A DNA stretch of 64,000 nt from Vitis vinifera (taxonomy: Eukaryota; Streptophyta; Magnoliopsida; Vitales; Vitaceae): the NCBI RefSeq assembly GCF_030704535.1, contig NC_081812.1, forward strand, positions 21,365,501 to 21,429,500. Reading direction: 5' to 3'. The position numbers and the translations under genes are program-made. Of the stretch, positions 7,451 to 54,217 are shown piece by piece; position 1 is the stretch's first letter, and the number at the start of each line of letters is the position of its first letter. The notes under the pieces were generated by a model. It was not told the DNA's origin. It did no database searches and saw only the letters and a list, made by a program, of their open reading frames with translations.

Positions 7451-10400
7451 ATGGCTTCCAAAGGACCAAGGTCTAAGCTTGATCATGAGACAAGAGCTAG
7501 GCGCCAAAAGGTAAGTTTGTGAAATTTTGGTGGTTTGCAATCTTATTTGCTTATACCTGTTCTTTTTAAGTTCTAAGTTTGTATCCTTTTGGACATCTCT
7601 ATTTTATGCAGTATGGTTGTAAGTTATGGATATGTGAATACAAAGATTCATGTCATGGGAAGGGGAGCCACAATCTTGATTTATTTATTTTTGTTTCTGG
7701 TGGCAAAACTATATGAAACACATGGATTCAGATCTTTGGGCCTCAGTGGCATGAAGTCTTATGTTTTACAATTTTGATTTGTAGATTGGATTCTCTTATG
7801 CTATATCTTTGTTTGCTTCTGATGTCTACCTTGTGTATACATGTCCTGGGGGCTTGGCTGAAGGTTTCAAATGGGTTTGGGGGAGGTTTCAGGTTCACCT
7901 ATCAAAAGCCCAAGTAAATCAAGACCTTTATTAAAAAGTAATTAATTAGAAAAATAACTTGTACAGTAGTACATGCAGTCAAAAAAGAAAAAAAAGCTGT
8001 AAAAAAACTATTATAAATGATGAGCAATGGCCCTCAGATGCTTATGGCTTGCACATGGTAAGCAATTCCCATGAAGATTTCAGATATAAGCATTTATAAA
8101 AGAATGAAGCAAGAACTATTTAAACATCACCGTGTAAACAATTCCATCAGGCAGTCCCTCAACAACCTTCCTTAATTCATTTGACATTTCCTACTGAATT
8201 TCTGTCTACTGAAGAATCTGTCACAAATATACGAAGAAAAAGAGCAATAACTAGGCAAATGGGTTGACAGTTGACTTGAAGTAACATTGGGCTATTGTTT
8301 GTTAGGTTAGTAGTGCATGTTCAACTTGAATGTGTGTCTATGAAAAGAGTAATAATGTGAATAAACGAAAACCTACATTTAGGTTTTTAGTCCTTTGAGT
8401 GGTTGATGCACCTTCTATTTCAATCACTTAAACAATAATAAACTTCTAGGTGAATATGCAAATTTTTATTTATCTATGAAGAAACAAAGAGACAAACCTA
8501 TAGGCAATCAGAACACTGATGCCATGATCCTCTGAGGTGTGCTTTAAGTTTTCTGTTTTGATTTCTTTGTCAATTGTTGACTCTTGAACTTGGCTGTTGT
8601 AGGCACTTGAGGCTCCTAGGGAGCCCCGTCGTCCTAAAACACACTGGGATCATGTTTTAGATGAGATGGTTTGGCTCTCAAAGGTAATTGACTAGTTTAT
8701 GCTATGAAGATGATTCTTTCTTTCTTTCAATTTTGTCCTCCTTTGTGTTGATCATGTTGAATGAATGATATTATGAGGTAAATTGAGATATATGTTTGGT
8801 ACTCTTCATTGCTCATTAACAAGTTGTAACAGGACTTTGAGTCGGAGAGGAAATGGAAATTGGCTCAGGCAAAGAAGGTCGCTTTAAGAGCTAGCAAGGG
8901 CATGTTGGATCAAGCCACAAGGGGAGAAAAGAGAGTTAAGGTTTGGCATTTCCCTTCCTAAAGCTGAATTTCTAATGTATCCACGAATGGAAATTCTTCG
9001 CATTACGCAGACCATGGTTATACTTGTAGGCACTTCGTTTATCTTTCTCTTTCTGACATTGTTAATGTCACTGTTTCAATTGCTATCAGGAAGAAGAACA
9101 ACGTTTGCGAAAGGTTGCACTTACCATTTCAAAGGATGTAAAGAAGTTCTGGATCAAAATAGAGAAGCTGGCAAGTTCATCTACAATAATTTGAATTCCT
9201 CTTCAAGTACAAGTTTTGACTTTAATTTCTGTGCTTCTGAAATCACAATTCTTGTACACAAAATTGTAATCCAGGTGCTTTACAAACATCAAATGGAGCT
9301 CGATGAGAAAAAGAAAAAGGCACTTGATAAACAGCTTGAGTTCCTTTTGGGGCAAACTGAGAGGTAGAATTCTGTCTTGTATGAATTTGATTCTAAGTTA
9401 ATGCAATGCACAGAAACAATATTCAAGTTTATCAACCTTTCTGAACTCTTTTTGGCTATCCATGTTTGGGGAAAGTTAATAATATTTTAATGCTGAATTA
9501 GGTACTCAACAATGTTGGCAGAGAACCTTGCGGATACATACCAACCAACCCAACAGTATTTACCCAAGGAACGATGTAGTATTCAATATAAAGAAGTGGA
9601 CGACCCTGGATTTAAAGAAGGTATACAACATTATATTGGGAAACACAAATTTGTACTTCTTTCAGTTTTATCTGATGAATCTAGTTATCCTTAAAGTTGA
9701 CGTGTTCTCTTAATAAGAAAACTGACATGTTTTGTGCAGTACCTCAGTCAGGTATTGCTGATGTTGATGAAGATTATGATATGCAGTCTGAAGAGGAATT
9801 GGTGAGCCTTTCTTTTTGTTGTCTCTTCTGTATATCTTTTTTTTTGATGGGTAAATGAGCCAATATATTAAAAAATGCTAGCAAAATGGTGCAATAAATT
9901 AAACATGAAGTATACAAAAAAGGCTAGCAAGAGAGAAAAGGGAAGAGCAAATACTAACCACCCTAACAACAACCAAACAACACCACCCCTAGAAAACTGG
10001 ACTGTCCTTGATGGGAAAGACCAGAAAACAACCAATACCAACACCAAAAGAAACACCTAAAGCCTAAAAAGACCTAGGAAGGGAAAAAAAAAACCCGTTC
10101 TAAAGCCCTTCTGCAACCAAAAATCCTCAACCAATTTGGGAGCAAATTAAGCAACCTCATATTGATAGAGCTGAAACCCCATTGCTCTCCCCCTTTCCCC
10201 TAATTGAGTGAAGAGAGCAATTGTAATTAACTTTTTTTTTTGATAGGTAAAATCAGAAGAAAATATATAAATGTAGAAAAAGGAAGCCTAGTGGACAACC
10301 CAAGACATACAAGAAGTATATGGTAGGCGCCATAAAGCAAAGAAGAAGAAAAAAGAGGGGATACCAAAAACCTCACCCGCTTTCACCTAAAACCCAACCA

Positions 10401-13400
10401 ATAAAAAAAGTTGATTAAAGGTAAAGGTCTAACATCTATATACAACTTTGTCTAGGGTCAAAAACTACACACAAAAGAATTCTTCAACCTATGAATTGAA
10501 AACTTTTCATTGTCAAACGCTATCTTGTTTCTTTCCTTCCATATTGCCCAAAAAAAGCATAAAGGAGCCAACTTCCATGCTTTTTTGCACTTCTTGCTAA
10601 CAAAGGATCCATACCAACCAAGGAGAGTCTCCCTTACTGAGCAAGGGAGAACCTAAGTCACACCAAAAAGGGCAAGTAATAACTCCCACGAAACCTTAGT
10701 CTTCATGCAGTGGATTAAGATGAGAATGATTTCCCTCTCCAAACGAGTAGACGAGAACGATTTCCTATTTCCCCCCGAGACCTTAACCCCACTTTTTTTT
10801 TCTTAACTCCATCTTCCTCAAAAGGGAACTAATTTTCTTTTTAGAACCCACCACAGACAACCCCAAAAAGCTGCTGAAATTGGCAAACTCATTGGGAAGA
10901 CTAACAAATCCAAGCTCCTCTCCCTTTGAAATGCACTAGGCCTCTAAAGCTTTGTTAGCTTTCAGCTCCTTAGCCTTAACCACCAACTCCTTACTTGAAG
11001 GACCCTTCGTTGCACTTCCCATAAGATCCAACGTCCTTCCATCTTGTAGCATCATTCTTAGCGGCCGACAACCATAATCCAAAGTCCCCAAAGGAGGCCT
11101 CGCCCCTCCTTGACACGCCAACCTGATGTCGCAAATGGGAGACCCAATCGAAGAAGGAGGAGAAGGTGGGGACGAAAACCTACCTTCAAAATTTGTTGCT
11201 TCTACCACAAGGGCTTCATTGACTTTCAAAACCCATTTCACTGGACCTTGAACTATCACCTTTAGAAGGGGATTGGCAAAGTACTCTTAAGGAAATGTCT
11301 AAAACACCATTGATAGGAAGTCTGAGAAGCCATTGGGATTTCTTAACCAAGGTCCCAAAACCAATGGGTCAACTCTCTGAAGGACTTAAGAGACACAACT
11401 TAGACTTGGAAAGGCCACCTTGGCCCTGTTCAGATGAACTTGAGGTGGAAGCTATGGGTTGGACAAAGAAGAAGCTTGGGGTCCTTTCACCTACAACCTT
11501 GTCTTTTAAAGACCTAAGGCCTAACATCTCCCAAGGGGGCCGAAGAAACTCATTGTCTAAGCTATTGACCTTATTTGAAAATGCTTTCTCCGACATTGCT
11601 TGTGCTACGAGACAAGGCTTAGGACGCAAAACCTGCAATAGTTCAACATGTCTCTCTCGTTCCCCTCCACTCTCCTTGCTGCGTGTGAACCTCTCTCCCT
11701 TTCATCCCTGACTTTTGTGCTTTTGTATCTCTCCTTAAAGACCAACCTCAACAACCATGGCGAAACTTCCCACCACAATTGGACAATAGAGGCATCTTCT
11801 TTTGTCCATGACAATCAATTTGATCAGTGCCTTTCTCCCACTAGATTTAATGAGTAGTCTTAGCCTATTTCAGGTCATGCTTCTCCTTGGTCTCCAGATC
11901 CACCATCACAAAGCCTCCAAAGGCATTGCCTAACCTCTTAAAGAAATCTTTTCCCCGCAAATGCGTCAGTAGACCCAACACTCTCACCCACACTTCATCG
12001 ACGCAAGCATTTTCTCTAAAGCAACCAACATTTGACCCCAACTAGTCCAACTGTATCTCAAACAAACTAGGTCCCAAATGCACAACTCTTTTGGCCTTAG
12101 AAACATCTTCAAACTCAAATAAATAGAGAGTGGCTCCCAACAAAAGCTGATGCAAATCCCCTTTCGAACCTTAAGATTGTTGAGCCCATGATTTCAACAA
12201 GTCTAAGATTGGTGAATAGTTTGCAAAACTATACCATCTCCTCACCAGACACTTTTTGAGAGACACTAAGTTGCTTAAAACCTCCTCAGTCTCCTCTCAA
12301 CCACACTATTTCACCCAAATCCCTCTTGCCTTTGTTCATCACCTCTACATAGGGATGACAACTTCACGGGTTTTTCGGGTTACTTACCTTGCCCCTATTA
12401 GAACGGGTATGAGAGTATACTAATTGGGGAATGGACGGGTTTGAGTTTATTTTTTATTCGGGTTTGGGCTGAGGTTGGGTTTTGTAATAACACGCCCCAC
12501 CCGACTTACAATATACCAATAATACCCCCTATAAATATTTCTCTTCATTTTCAGGGTTTTCTCCTCTTATCAAATGTAGAGACATTTTTATCTGTTTCTC
12601 TTTCTCACTTTGGGCCTTTGTGGAGTTGATTTTTCACACAAAGGCATAGCTCAGCCAAAATCACACCCACTGCAATGGCTCTCAAGCTCCTCACTGTTTT
12701 CATCTCCCCATTCCACAACCCTTCTCCTCAATCTCGTTGTGCCAAATCTCATAGAGTTTTCATGGCCTCCACTCTTCACTCCACCTCTATGTGAGTTTTT
12801 TCCCCAATCGTTTCTCATTGATTTGGAATCTTGTGATACCCATTATTATAATTCCAAATGTGTTTTTCTTGTTGGTTTTATTTCTTTTATGGGTTTTATG
12901 GGTTTTTTTCTCGACTGTCAAATGAATCATTATATGATTTGTAATTTGAGCTTTTTCTGTAGAGATGTTTACAGGTGTCATAAAAAATTGGTTTTTGGTG
13001 TTTGTATTAATGTGGGTTGTTACTATTTGATCTAAATGTTTCGGATATTGAGTTGAATATTGTGGGTTCATTGTGATAAAAAAAAGATTTTTTTTTTCCT
13101 TCAAATTGATTGCAATTTGTTGCATCTTAGGTGATAATTTCTCTTTGGGAACTAGATTTCATTATGGATTTGAGATTTGCATTTGCCAAACGGGGAAGGA
13201 CAAGGATGGGGACGGGATTATAGTTTTGGTTTGAAAACAGGAATGGGAACGCTTACCCTGCCCCGACTCGGGTTTGGGACGGGGATGGAAAGTAGTTTTA
13301 TATTTTGGGACGGGAATGGGATAGGGGTGCCCCGTCCCAAACCTGCCCCCGTTGCCATTCCTACCTCTACAAAGGAAGCATGTTTCAACAAAATGCCACC

Positions 13401-16400
13401 TCCCTTTTCATCTCGACACCTAACCTGCTCCTTAGACTCCTCCAAAGGCCTAGACTTAGGGACAACCTTGATGTTCCTAAGACTAGTGGCAAGGGCCTTC
13501 CAATTCCCTCTGGGAAAATTAAAGAGAACCTTTTTCCCTCTACGCACATAACTGAACACACCAAAGGCCTTCCAGCTTTGTTGCTGTGCACTTCAGCTTG
13601 TAGCCCCTTCCACCTTCATTCCACACCCTTCTGAAAGGCTCCCTAAACTTCCCTTCAAAGCAGTCTTCCACCACCTCAAGGAGCCAAGCAATACCCCTCT
13701 CACCAAATTTGATCCAAGAGGGAAACCCTCAACCCCTCTCTATAATTCTCCCAACCACCTTACCATATACTAACTCCATTAAAGGATTTCGATTCCTCTT
13801 CAAAACAACATTTTCCCCCAAGAGAGAAGTTCTTCAAACTTGCTTCTTCGATCAGACTCCTCTAATGAGTTTAGAGTTCCAACAAACTTCTTCTCTCAAT
13901 TCTAGTTAGTGGGATCCTGTTTGATTTTTTTAGAGCTCCAAACGGTTGAGGCAAGGAGACCCCTTGTTTTAGAATTGTGGAGATTTTGGTATTCAAAGAT
14001 GCTCCACATTGTCTCTTCAGTATGCTTGACACATTGCCTTTTTATTTTCTACTATTTGTGCTATGCTCCATTAGAATATTTACTAACATCCTAGGAACCA
14101 AATATACAAATCAGTGTGGGGAAAGGTCTGCTTGTTGCTTTCTGAAACCAATGTAATGGTTGACCTGAGTTATACAACATGTAATGTGGTTATCAGTGCT
14201 GAGGATGTGGAGTTCTGAGTGCTGTTAGGCAGCAAACTCAATCAGCATATGCAGAAGTACCGTCTTATGCATTTATTACTTGTTTATTTTCTGAGGAAAG
14301 AAAGCCTATCAAAAAAAAAAAAAAAAAAATTTCTGTGGGAACAAAGGTTGTTCTTGTAAATAAACTTAATGTAAAGTTAGAAAAGAAACTCAAAGCAAGG
14401 AGGGCAGGAACTGAGATTCAACCTTCTCCATGTTTTATGTGAGGGGCCTTGCTGGAGATTGGTGATCCCCTTTTCCGATAGTCAAAAGGTTTACTAAAAG
14501 ACACCTAGAAAAAAGAGGGCACAACCCAAACACACATGATGTATACAAAGCAAGTTGAAGGATAAAATGGGATAAAGCAGAGTAAGGGGATTTTGTTTGT
14601 TTTGTTTGCTTGTTTGTTTTTTCTTTTTGTTTCTGTTTTGTGAGGCTGTTAGGCCATTTGTTTATCATCTTTCAGTCCCTTTCCTTCTTTCTGTTGTGAG
14701 ATATTTATAATTATGCTCAAGTACCTTGTTCTGTATGAAGTATATTTTGATTGGCAATAGCTCAAGTACCGTGTTATATATATGTAAAATATATATTTTG
14801 ATAGGCAATTGGTCAAGTACCTTGTTGTATGCAAATATGCTCTGTTAGCTACTTAAATAATTTGGTCCAACTATGTGGTTTTGCTTGTGCTACATGGATT
14901 CCTTCTAGGGAACTGTAATGTGGAATTCCTATGTATTTCTTGCTTCTCTGACTAATGTACACCTAAATATTCCTTTGTGCTGTGATACTGTTTTAGGAAG
15001 ATGATGAGCATACCATCGAGGAAGATGAGGCCCTCATTACTGAAGAGGAAAGGCAAGAAGAATTGGAAGCACTGCACAATGAGATAGATCTACCGCTTGA
15101 GGAGCTGCTCAAACGTTATGCAATGAAGAAAGGTGAATCATAACAATGTCTAATAATTGTTTCTGAAATTGCTATTTCCACTAAAACATGCTTTATCTAC
15201 AAAAAATATCAGTTTCATGTGATGAAAATAACATCGAAAAATGTGATAAATTAGTGGATGCAGCAAAATTATGTTGAAATACTCTTCCTCCCTCCCTCCC
15301 ACTATCTCTCATTTGGGGTATAACTGCCCACCGTCTTTTTTGCACCTTATATTTTGTCATTAATTTTGACCAATATGAGTGTTATCAGTTAGCAGTGGTA
15401 GTAGTCAAGACAAGGATGAAGAGGAAGCAGAACCAACTTCAGTGGGGGATGATCATTTTGGGGGTAAGAAGACATCACTGAACCTTCTTGTTTTATGAAT
15501 TATGCGACTGACTGTGATGATGGGGTAAATATTTTGCAGGTGAAGGACAGGATCTGTCTGATACTTGTAAGATTGATAAAAACAGCTCACTCACAGTCAT
15601 CGGTCGTCGTTGTGTAAGTTGTATGTGTTTTATGGTTGCTGTTGTTGAATTACAGACCAAGTTCAGGGCTCAACATAATGTTTATTTTCTAATTACAGGG
15701 TGAAAGTAATGGTAGCTTATCCATTTCAGAGCACCATTTGTTAGAAGTTGATACATGTCAAGCCAAGAATGTGTCAGAAATTTCTAGGGAGTCAGATGAA
15801 GAAAGTAAAGTATATGATTTTAATGATGAACAGGTTGGAAATTATTCCTTCTATTTCACCTTTTTTATAGACTTTAATTTTGTTTTTGATTCTGATGAAT
15901 AAATCTGCATTAAAGGGGTTTTATGGGAATTTTCTGGTTGGACATTGATGTAATATATATTTGTACATTAAGAATAAATGCATTAGTAAAGAGTTGAGGA
16001 GTTAAGTGTAGCATTAATTGAGAACTAGATTAGGACTAGAGTCAATTAGATGGTAGAGGTATGCGCAAAAATGACTGGAGACTGGACCTGCAAGGGAGGA
16101 TAGTTTGGGTTGAAGGCAACAAAAAGGCCAGGGATTGGAGAAAAATGTGGATCAGGTAGAGAGGCTCACATTTTCTATCAGTAGGGACTTAAGGGATGCA
16201 TAAATATAATGTTCACAAAGGATTGTCCGTCAGGGTGCCCAGTTGGTTAGGGTGAATGCCAGGATGTGTTGTAGCATCGCACGGTGGGTTCAATTCCTCC
16301 TACTGGTTCAATGCCTTGGATTACCTTCTACTGGATGTGGCAGGTGTGATTGACACCCTGAAGTTTGGGTCCTCATGAGTCTGAAGGGTTTGGCCATGGA

Positions 16401-51505: not shown

Positions 51506-54217
51506 AATAATAATAGGCAAATAAAATCCGATTGAAGGCGCCAAGCAAAAAAGGGGGTGCACCCTATGTATAGAGGGGTATACAATAGGCACCAAAAAAC
51601 AAGAGAACCAAACTTCTCACTAAAACAACACAACTCAACCAATCTATCCAGAGTTTAGACTATAAATGAATTTCATCAATGTACAATTTTCCACATTAAA
51701 AGGAACTATAGACCATTCACATATAAATTTAATTAAAATCTCCTTTAGTCTTTTATTTGAAAAATTATATAAACAAACGTAAATAAATTTTATATATATA
51801 GACACACACATACATATGTACATACATGCATTTGTGGAAAAAGTACCTATCATATTTAATATTTCTAGAAATTGGGGGTTTATACTAACTTCACTTTCAT
51901 TTTATCCAATACATGAATAAAAAATAAAGTTAAGAAAGTGAAATATGCAATGGAAAAGAGATCAACTTTTCTACCAAGTATATTGACATCTATTGTTTCT
52001 GTTATATATACTGGAAACTACTAGCATTTCAAATAGCAAGACGATGAAAATCCTACAAACAGAAGCAATTTGGACCAGAAATTAACACCAAATGAGTATG
52101 AAATCATAATAGATAATCATTGGTCAATCATCTCAAATTCTATAGATTGCCAACATGAAAAACTTTTTTTTTTTTTTTTTTTTTGATTGGATCAACATGA
52201 GAAACTATCTCAATACCTGAATATCCATAAGGGCCTTTATCTTTGAAATCTTCTCCAAGCCTTGCATTATCTCATCGAATCTTATGTTAACATGTTGATA
52301 TGCTTCTCCAGATTCAGCAGCCACAGCTGCCATTTTAACTGCCTTATGGCACAAGATTTTAAAATTGTCTGCTGCAGCCAACATAGGGTCTTCTTCTATG
52401 ATAGACCCATGACCATCTCTTACACTTCCAACCCTTGCATCTTTTGTCCACCTATTTAACATGTATTGTGTTGGAACTACCTTAATGTTCCTTTGGTCAA
52501 GCACTTTTAAAGCATGGCTGCACAAAACTCCATCAAATTCAAACTTCATACAACTGCAGACTACTGTATCATTTGATGGATTAAATGTAACTTTATGCTC
52601 TCGAGAATGTTCATATATGTTTACCTTGTACTCAAATAAAGATCCACTTGAACCACACTCATTAACAACCAGATTCAGACACTTCTCATATTCTCGTTGA
52701 AACACTTCAAAGACTTCTGGTGTATAAACATCCCTCGCATGCTTTAACAATATCACATTCCCCAACAATGATGGCAACTGTTCAAATATGTCATAACTAG
52801 CTTCTAATTCTTTGCAACGTAGATCAGACACCATCCTTTCGAAATGCTCAAAAGTTTGCAATATATCTAGGTCAGGGTTTAAGTGATCCATCAAGTTTCT
52901 ATTAAAACTGTTAATTAACTCTGAGTTTTTTAGATCTGCGTAAAAAGTATGCCTTCCATAGGCAATAGCCCATTTCTCTCTTTCATCAAATATCCCCTTC
53001 AACCACTTATTTTTCCGAAGATTGTGTGTATCCAACATTACCTTCCACGCCTGAATGAAGTCCTCTTTATCTTCATGATCATAAATGCAGCTGCTAAAAT
53101 CTCTGGAAAAAGAGCCTGGGCCATCAAACGCATGGCTTAGATGTAAAAGAGCATTGTGGTATATATTCCAGATACATATACGATGATTTGTTTCTGGCAT
53201 CACCAAATTGATCGCTTCACTAATTGCTGCATGTTGATCTGTGAGAATTGTCTTTGGCTTCTGTCCAGACATTGCTGTCATAAATGTTTGAAATAGTACC
53301 TCAAAAGATCCAATAGTATCATCATATAAAAGTGCAGCACCAAATATAACTACTTGCTTGTGATGATTCACACCAACAAATGGCACTAATGGTTGGCAAT
53401 CTTTGTTAGTTCTGAAAGTTGTATCGAAGCAAACCACATCACCAAACTGGCCATAGTCCACAATCATCTGTTTATCAGCCCAAAATATGTTGGTTATATA
53501 ATCATCAATATCATGTTGCACTTCATAAAAGAATGACGGATCTTCCAATTGCCGCTTCTGTAGACAATCCAACAAAATTATTTCCTCTCCTTCCTTCATT
53601 TCTCTTCTCCTCCTAGAATGCAAATGGTTGTTATAGTCAAAGGCTGATTCTGAGTGTCTCCTAAAACTATCCTCTGAGTCAACACCAGCAGCTTGAGCAT
53701 CAGTTAATCTCCCTTCTGGTGGTACACTGCAGGCTTCATCTGGGGCCCTAACTTCATGATTGTGTTTAGCTTCAAAATGGATGACAGCATATTTACCATT
53801 GGATTGGCGAGAAACGACCATTTGTGCCAAGCAACCGGTTTTCCTTTCCTTCCTACGTTTCCTCGCATTAGCACCATATTTGTCATTCTGTACAAAACTT
53901 TCTTTAGAGCAAGGAAACCTTCTTGCTAGCACTTCACCATTCATCTCACTCTTGTCTAAATGATTATTCCTAACAGTAAACCCTGTCAATCTAGCATAAT
54001 TACTGTAAAATTCATATGCTTGATCATCAGATTCAAACTCCATTCCAATTTTTGGTACCATATCCATGCCAGCTTCTTCTTCTAAAGAAATATTAGGTTG
54101 TGCATTATCAACAGAGGGAATTACTATGTCAAATTCCAAGACTTGTGAACTAAGAGGTTTTACCTCCATATCATCTTCAGCCAGAGTACTGCTTGTTCCA
54201 ATATCAGTTCCATCCAT
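49169..54217 (-). CDS. FAR1/FHY3-related (FRS) transcription factor
   Basis: Domesticated MULE transposase family; members are nuclear transcription factors in light and stress signalling (family knowledge). The main exon is 54217-52217 (667 codons), ending at a donor (CAG|GTATTG). A second exon, 49345-49173, fits in phase (VAENSGRFDGDGDVYFR...). It can either stop at TAA 49171-49169 or splice on at GG|GTAAAT. Order of domains: FAR1 DNA-binding domain (about 62-155, with conserved Cys/His near the end), MULE transposase domain (about 250-355, with VCFDTTF and ILTDQHAAI), and SWIM zinc finger (about 575-605, C-x-C ... C-S-H). The start was chosen because ATG-GAT-GG follows the leader directly and an acidic N-terminus follows. 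The 3' end is uncertain. FRS5-like is the closest guess. Confidence 0.85.
49346..52216 (-). other. Long intron of the FRS gene
   Basis: 2.87 kb, AT-rich. It includes a (GA)n run at 51474-51500, a LINE-like 3' end (51500-51660) and a T-run at 52163-52183. A hydrophobic 67-codon frame at 50446-50243 (minus) has no upstream support. No other gene is seen. Confidence 0.5.
51474..51660 (-). mobile_element. (GA)n tract and LINE 3' end
   Basis: A GA dinucleotide run (51474-51500) adjoins sequence that on the minus strand has GGTGCCTATTGTATACCC and GCTTGGCGCCTTC. These resemble the terminal part of the LINE at 10229, which also has GGCGCC and GTAT motifs. Confidence 0.45.

Follow-up and report, generated by a model that had tools for sequence, protein, structure and literature searches.

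A hAT element in a grapevine SNF2-family gene that very probably took up the 5' end of a stearoyl-ACP desaturase gene behind its own TATA-like arm

A hAT-type element of 1,014 bp, with exact coordinates 12350-13363, was found in the window (the whole 64,000-nucleotide stretch of Vitis vinifera DNA that was analysed). It is very probably a non-autonomous Pack-hAT that reflects one past event, in which a hAT copy without a transposase gene took in approximately 600 bp from the 5' end of a stearoyl-ACP desaturase gene; the piece begins about 88 nt before the ATG, spans exon 1 and extends into intron 1, and it lies in sense orientation behind the hAT's own TATA arm. The parent gene is present in the same genome, copies that keep the junctions have the same junctions, and several transpositions followed. 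The features on which this analysis is based are as follows:

9802..14996, plus strand, phase-0 host intron of an SNF2-family gene, with boundaries predicted from reading frames
11868..12041, minus strand, DUF4283 remnant of the older repeat hit by the hAT (E 4.3e-08)
12342..12349, no strand, left target-site duplication (TSD) CCTCTACA, from the sequence and paralogous empty sites
12350..12362, plus strand, left terminal inverted repeat (TIR) TAGGGATGACAAC, the common start among copies
12350..12556, plus strand, hAT left arm including the TATA block, common to relatives without the desaturase piece; end approximate
12530..12540, plus strand, TATA-like box TATAAATATTT of the hAT arm, found in copies and in non-desaturase relatives
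12557..12586, plus strand, junction zone of ambiguous origin (hAT arm or captured segment), 20.7-37.9% identity to the parent in seven insertions
12587..13188, plus strand, captured segment of a stearoyl-ACP desaturase gene (5'UTR, exon 1 and the start of intron 1), 74.7% identity over 652 columns
12587..12674, plus strand, captured 5'UTR; the score of the family consensus against the parent was not reached by any of 1000 shuffles (z 11.9)
12675..12790, plus strand, captured exon 1, transit-peptide region, 116 nt, with its ATG at 12675 and ending in phase 2
12791..13188, plus strand, start of captured intron 1, with GTGAGT at 12791, 76.6-80.2% identity to the parent in seven insertions
13189..13363, plus strand, hAT right arm, with at least 40 genome matches scored among 338 first-look candidates
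13351..13363, minus strand, right TIR GTTGCCATTCCTA
13364..13371, no strand, right TSD CCTCTACA

The short TIRs and 8-bp TSD are those of a hAT, and the letters of the TIRs are ones that we take to be hAT-like. A reading of this DNA from its sequence alone (the sequence-only reading) had described 13-bp inverted ends and an 8-bp duplication; the duplication is exact on both sides, but the ends are imperfect and pair at only 11 of 13 positions. When the flanks were joined with one TSD copy and searched against the plant's own genome (21 contigs, 495.6 Mb), 22 rows were obtained, two of which were the window's own halves. Nineteen of the remaining 20 extend 40 or more bases to each side of the junction, and the best of these empty sites (C4:15204456-15204868) matches positions 1-394 of the 400-base query at 81%. 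Because the joined flanks cross the junction elsewhere in the genome, the window element is a precise insertion into an older repeat, whose DUF4283 remnant lies in the left flank on the opposite strand. The proposal that an element occupies 12350-13363 is therefore borne out by its TIRs, its TSD and these paralogous empty sites.

To find a parent gene and further copies, as the sequence-only reading had recommended, the genome was searched with the interior of the element (12520-13180). This returned 21 rows, among them other element copies and a locus without hAT ends at C7:22081339-22081964(-), with 75% identity. A PF03405 profile search revealed strong desaturase exons downstream of this locus on the same strand, at C7:22078508-22078936 (E 6e-69) and C7:22077251-22077790 (E 5e-81), while the other 20 rows all fall outside PF03405 matches, so that this row alone lies at a desaturase locus. 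Exon 1 of the parent gene encodes MALKLNSAFICPYHNPRPQSRRPRSHRVFMASTLRPTS plus a split codon and ends at a GTGAGT donor, exon 2 continues with EVENLKKPF, and the exons are open. When joined, they match plant or chloroplast acyl-ACP desaturase chains in the PDB (best E 3e-225), which are presumably from castor. The interior of the element thus derives from a host gene elsewhere in the genome.

The parent reference was C7:22074000-22083900 in reverse complement; its positions 1937-2570 align with element positions 238-839 (12587-13188) at 74.7% identity over 652 columns (E 5e-126). In the window copy, the captured piece comprises about 88 nt of 5'UTR, the 116-nt exon 1 and about 400 nt of intron 1, and the presence of intron sequence inside the element indicates capture from DNA rather than from mRNA. 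The TATA at 12530, the ATG exon at 12675-12790 and the clean GTGAGT donor at 12791 were all present as previously described, the assignment of the exon to a plastid stearoyl-ACP desaturase is supported by the roughly 75% identity of 12587-13188 to the 5'UTR, exon 1 and intron 1 of the C7 gene, and the sequence after the exon that had been called intron-like aligns to parent intron 1. The exon encodes MALKLLTVFISPFHNPSPQSRCAKSHRVFMASTLHSTS plus a split codon; this 39-amino-acid peptide alone has no Pfam match and no PDB match. Two loci, L025 and L026, were considered as second parents and rejected, as they are decayed element copies with hAT arm sequence.

A search of the genome with the element DNA gave at least 51 match rows, with 40 of 360 candidates scored. 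Sixteen loci were compared, of which 14 are nearly complete, while C17a retains only the left half and C1b only the right part. The sequence TAGGGATG[AG]CAAC forms the start of 14 of the 16 copies, the exceptions being C14c, whose left end is decayed (TAGGGATGGTAG), and C1b. Nine copies, here called the TTTCC group, feature one common left flank (GAGGTTT[CT]CG[GA]A), with flanks that resemble one another for hundreds of bases and up to 4 kb. The seven members with a cleanly aligned right end have the TSD TTTCCGGA/TTTCCAGA or a close variant (5-7 of 8 positions alike). Since the left flank is common to all nine, these copies were not accepted as nine transpositions and represent one insertion multiplied inside a larger repeat. 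This carrier repeat, of up to 4 kb or more, was located at nine places on seven contigs (L002, L003, L004, L005, L007, L010, L017, L019 and L022), and a scan of two of its reading frames gave no Pfam match.

Six sites have distinct TSDs, namely the window, the TTTCC group, C7a, C5a, C18a and C14b. The two TSD copies agree at 8 of 8 positions for the window copy and C14b, and at best at 7 or 8 of 8 positions for the other four when offsets of 0-1 are allowed at each end; no TSD was recognisable at C14c, which is too decayed. Six distinct TSDs around copies that bear the desaturase segment show that the whole unit transposed after the capture. Among the copies listed, the right junction is common to those that retain it (C13b does not), and the left junctions agree as well. 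Given the same junctions across copies, one capture was counted, and the desaturase piece was probably taken up once and then spread.

The route to this arrangement can be outlined provisionally. A hAT copy without a transposase gene would have acquired the desaturase 5' piece, perhaps through copying errors in repair after excision, an idea that is mentioned in PMC3260210. Its product would then have moved to at least six sites, with transposase presumably supplied in trans by related elements with the same arms. Transcription, if it occurs, would begin in the hAT arm and give a short RNA whose captured exon could be spliced to any downstream acceptor, so that any transcribed copy would be a source of chimeric 5' ends.

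The gene around the window copy features SNF2 and Helicase_C domain matches, and we take it from its sequence to be PIE1. The element lies in its phase-0 intron (donor 9802, acceptor ending at 14996) in sense orientation, as had been read from the sequence. Joining the captured exon to the next host exon, at 14997, is out of frame and meets a stop 29 codons past the junction codon, which makes it unlikely that the host gene yields a fusion protein targeted to plastids. As the host's next acceptor would give a frameshift and an early stop, the window copy is most likely an intron fossil that would be removed by splicing along with the intron, rather than a working gene.

The fate of the exon was assessed in 15 rows aligned with the exon region, a set that leaves out the decayed L032 (C4) and L033 (C1). 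Ten of these keep an open frame as far as the donor, and eight of the ten represent the single TTTCC insertion. Counted by site, the frame is open at three of eight (the window, the TTTCC group and C18a) and broken or lost at five (C7a, C5a, C14b, C14c and C13b). Mean identity to the parent at codon positions 1, 2 and 3 is 84, 80 and 80%, respectively (six insertions); the third position is no freer than the others, so there is no sign of coding constraint on the captured exon. Identity among the insertions is slightly higher in the exon (88.2%) than in the intron (86.2%), which was not taken as selection. With the frame broken or lost at five of eight sites and third positions not freer, a coding function of the exon was rejected, and the copies appear to have kept none.

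The element could instead be a working promoter-exon cassette that starts transcripts in the host intron and so truncates or adds to the host mRNA. Its sense orientation and the retention of TATAAATATTT in 14 of the 15 copies and of GTGAGT in 13 would suit such a role, but the out-of-frame junction with the next host exon and the decay of the exon in other copies make it unlikely. It is also quite unlikely that small RNAs from the copies dampen the parent desaturase gene. The window copy has 24 21-mers in common with the parent, 15 of them within one exact run of 35 nt around the ATG, and C5a and C18a have 18 and 19, respectively; against this, the nine TTTCC-type copies have only 0-7, C14c has none, and overall identity to the parent is only about 75%. 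The 21-mers common to the window copy and the parent make a weak role as a small-RNA source possible.

The sequence-only reading had further proposed that the element captured the promoter of the desaturase gene together with exon 1 and therefore carries a ready-made plant promoter. This part of the proposal found no support. Detectable homology to the parent ends about 88 nt upstream of the ATG and does not run through the TATA box: in seven insertions, identity to the parent is 65-72% in the UTR, 20.7-37.9% at 12557-12586 and 42-47% in the TATA block, near the 35-40% of the unrelated hAT arms. Between -170 and -89, shuffling does as well as the true alignment of the family consensus to the parent in 176 of 1000 trials (886 of 1000 for copy C14c), and for the local alignment of the TATA block to the parent promoter it does so in 441 of 500. 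The distance from TATA to ATG is 145 nt in the element and about equal in the parent (TATAAG), which would fit a captured promoter but is read as coincidence. Promoter capture was rejected on the shuffle tests against the parent, and the occurrence of the same block in hAT relatives without desaturase sequence contributes to making this explanation very improbable.

These relatives point to a different origin for the TATA block. Shuffles performed as well as the alignment of the block in at most 1 of 500 cases for the desaturase-free relatives C19r, C10r, C5r, C16r, C2 and C6, and in 14 of 500 for C15r, which lacks TATAAATA. The alignments span the TATA itself in four of the seven relatives (C10r, C5r, C16r and C2), while C19r and C6 align immediately 3' of it and C15r immediately 5'; TATAAATA occurs nearby in C19r and is absent from the decayed C6 copy. 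In the C2 relative, both arms match those of the element (left E 5e-38, right E 1e-38), as does the TATA stretch (E 1e-6). The relative at C8:10905552 combines a TIR, the left arm and TATAAATATTT with a hAT dimerisation domain, interrupted by one stop, that lies about 4.1 kb further downstream and on the same strand; no right end was found in the 1.5 kb examined. Since the TATA block is found in desaturase-free hAT relatives and is unlike the parent promoter, it is best assigned to the hAT itself and not to the desaturase gene, and it is probably the promoter of the transposase gene. A promoter-plus-exon arrangement can thus arise when a first exon is captured behind a transposon arm that already has a TATA-like box and, as the promoter-like block here is the transposon's own, a TATA in front of a captured exon should be checked against transposon relatives before it is assigned to the parent promoter.

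Chance resemblance of MALKL/MASTL motifs in an ordinary hAT interior, for which only the lack of Pfam or PDB matches to the peptide alone could speak, was rejected by the 600-bp parent alignment through UTR, exon and intron (E 5e-126) and deserves practically no credence.

A possible source of transposase was sought by comparing 139 family rows (19 of 45, 40 of 43, 40 of 60 and 40 of 40 rows from four row sets), merged to 93 places, with 150 scored PF05699 matches (858 candidates). PF05699 was found within 7 kb at eight of the 93 places, in each case in the expected order and strand, compared with a chance expectation of 0.39 places in any order and strand. The C6 copy encodes pieces of PF14372 and PF05699 with stop codons between them; it has no left arm or TATA, and another 1 kb of sequence showed no right arm. 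A locus on C4 (25834208 to about 25844200, minus strand) has, judged by coordinates only, a 5' part, a transposase and a right arm in order over about 10 kb. Relatives with the same ends therefore encode hAT transposase, on evidence pieced together across several loci. The C2:19532240-19535380 locus, a candidate for the autonomous partner, turned out to be a relative that lacks the desaturase piece and contains a long nested insert, and none of the 150 scored PF05699 matches lies there. As a separate observation, 22 of 45 match rows for the interior of one desaturase-free relative fall within 1.4 Mb (C19:14188972-15572015), which suggests a local amplified array.

Other gene pieces occur in relatives that have this right arm. 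At L079 (C7:3611460-3612700), a hAT right arm lies beside a glutamate synthase-like exon (PF00310, E 1.9e-17; best E 1.3e-07 against PDB glutamate synthases), with a hAT transposase match 4.9 kb away on the same strand. Behind the left arm, L076 and L082 have an interior in common, 86.7% identical over 790 columns, that resembles exon and intron sequence by eye; reading frames of L081 and L076 gave no Pfam match below 0.2. It is conceivable, if doubtful, that capture behind the transposase promoter region is a recurrent habit of this hAT lineage: it would take up the starts of host genes (their 5'UTR, exon 1, donor and part of intron 1), and its non-autonomous members would be mobile promoter-plus-first-exon cassettes able to start and splice transcripts at any insertion site. 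Such pairing is seen most clearly in the desaturase family; further cases would be C15r and C2, in which an interior that appears exon/intron-like by eye lies behind the same left arm (without TATAAATA in C15r), and the glutamate synthase-like exons beside the right arm on C7.

Gene capture by hATs has already been published for grapevine and maize, and the desaturase element adds a further Pack-hAT. Hatvine-6 (hAT-6_VV), described in grapevine by Benjak et al. in 2008 (PMC2528002), is likewise a hAT with 13-bp TIRs, and its members agree in their ends and transposase but differ in a variable region, which frequently matches host-gene exons and introns. Its tabulated TSD is 9 bp, however, compared with 8 bp here, and identity of the two families, compared by table values and description, is only a lead; the words "desaturase" and "stearoyl" do not occur in the main text of that paper. 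The Pack-hATs of maize (PMC8903248) are also non-autonomous, with TIRs, 8-nt TSDs and captured coding DNA, and one of them gives a maize gene a new splice donor, but they belong to another plant and have other TIRs, and neither "vitis" nor "grape" occurs in the main text. Maize Ds2 and Ds-l4 comprise hAT ends around gene filler DNA that includes exons plus introns, in a report that calls gene capture in hATs rare (PMC3260210); they differ in their genes and ends, and the element described here features one capture followed by several transpositions. A soybean CACTA element with gene fragments (PMC1947982) is comparable in that transposon-borne fragments can be spliced into new exon combinations, but it belongs to a different superfamily, and its splicing has been reported. 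No paper describing this desaturase-carrying element was found among the open-access papers listed, which for PMC2528002 means its main text, and "hAT" does not occur in the main text of a 2026 review (PMC13317346). The element provides a clean case of hAT gene capture in which the parent, junctions, empty sites and later spread can all be followed in one genome.

Additional desaturase-like sequences were observed elsewhere in this genome. Pieces of the desaturase domain (profile positions ~170-228) occur at C1:15172134, C1:15424823, C10:19319783, C10:19306261 and C13:12157657, each approximately 106-202 kb from a TTTCC-type hAT copy. Three of these pieces (L061-L063) lie in a dispersed repeat that is 87-97% alike over 1.8-2.5 kb and matches parent exon 3 over 170 bp at 76-78%. 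The pattern suggests either that a desaturase piece was dispersed separately for a second time or that large duplicated blocks are shared. In addition, C12:17648155-17649063 and C12:17660374-17661237 cover most of the desaturase profile in one stretch, with five and four stops, respectively, a pattern as in retrocopies or intronless pseudogenes. Within the window itself, a 670-amino-acid open frame at 52205-54217 on the minus strand resembles, by eye, an FAR1/FRS-type (MULE-derived) protein.
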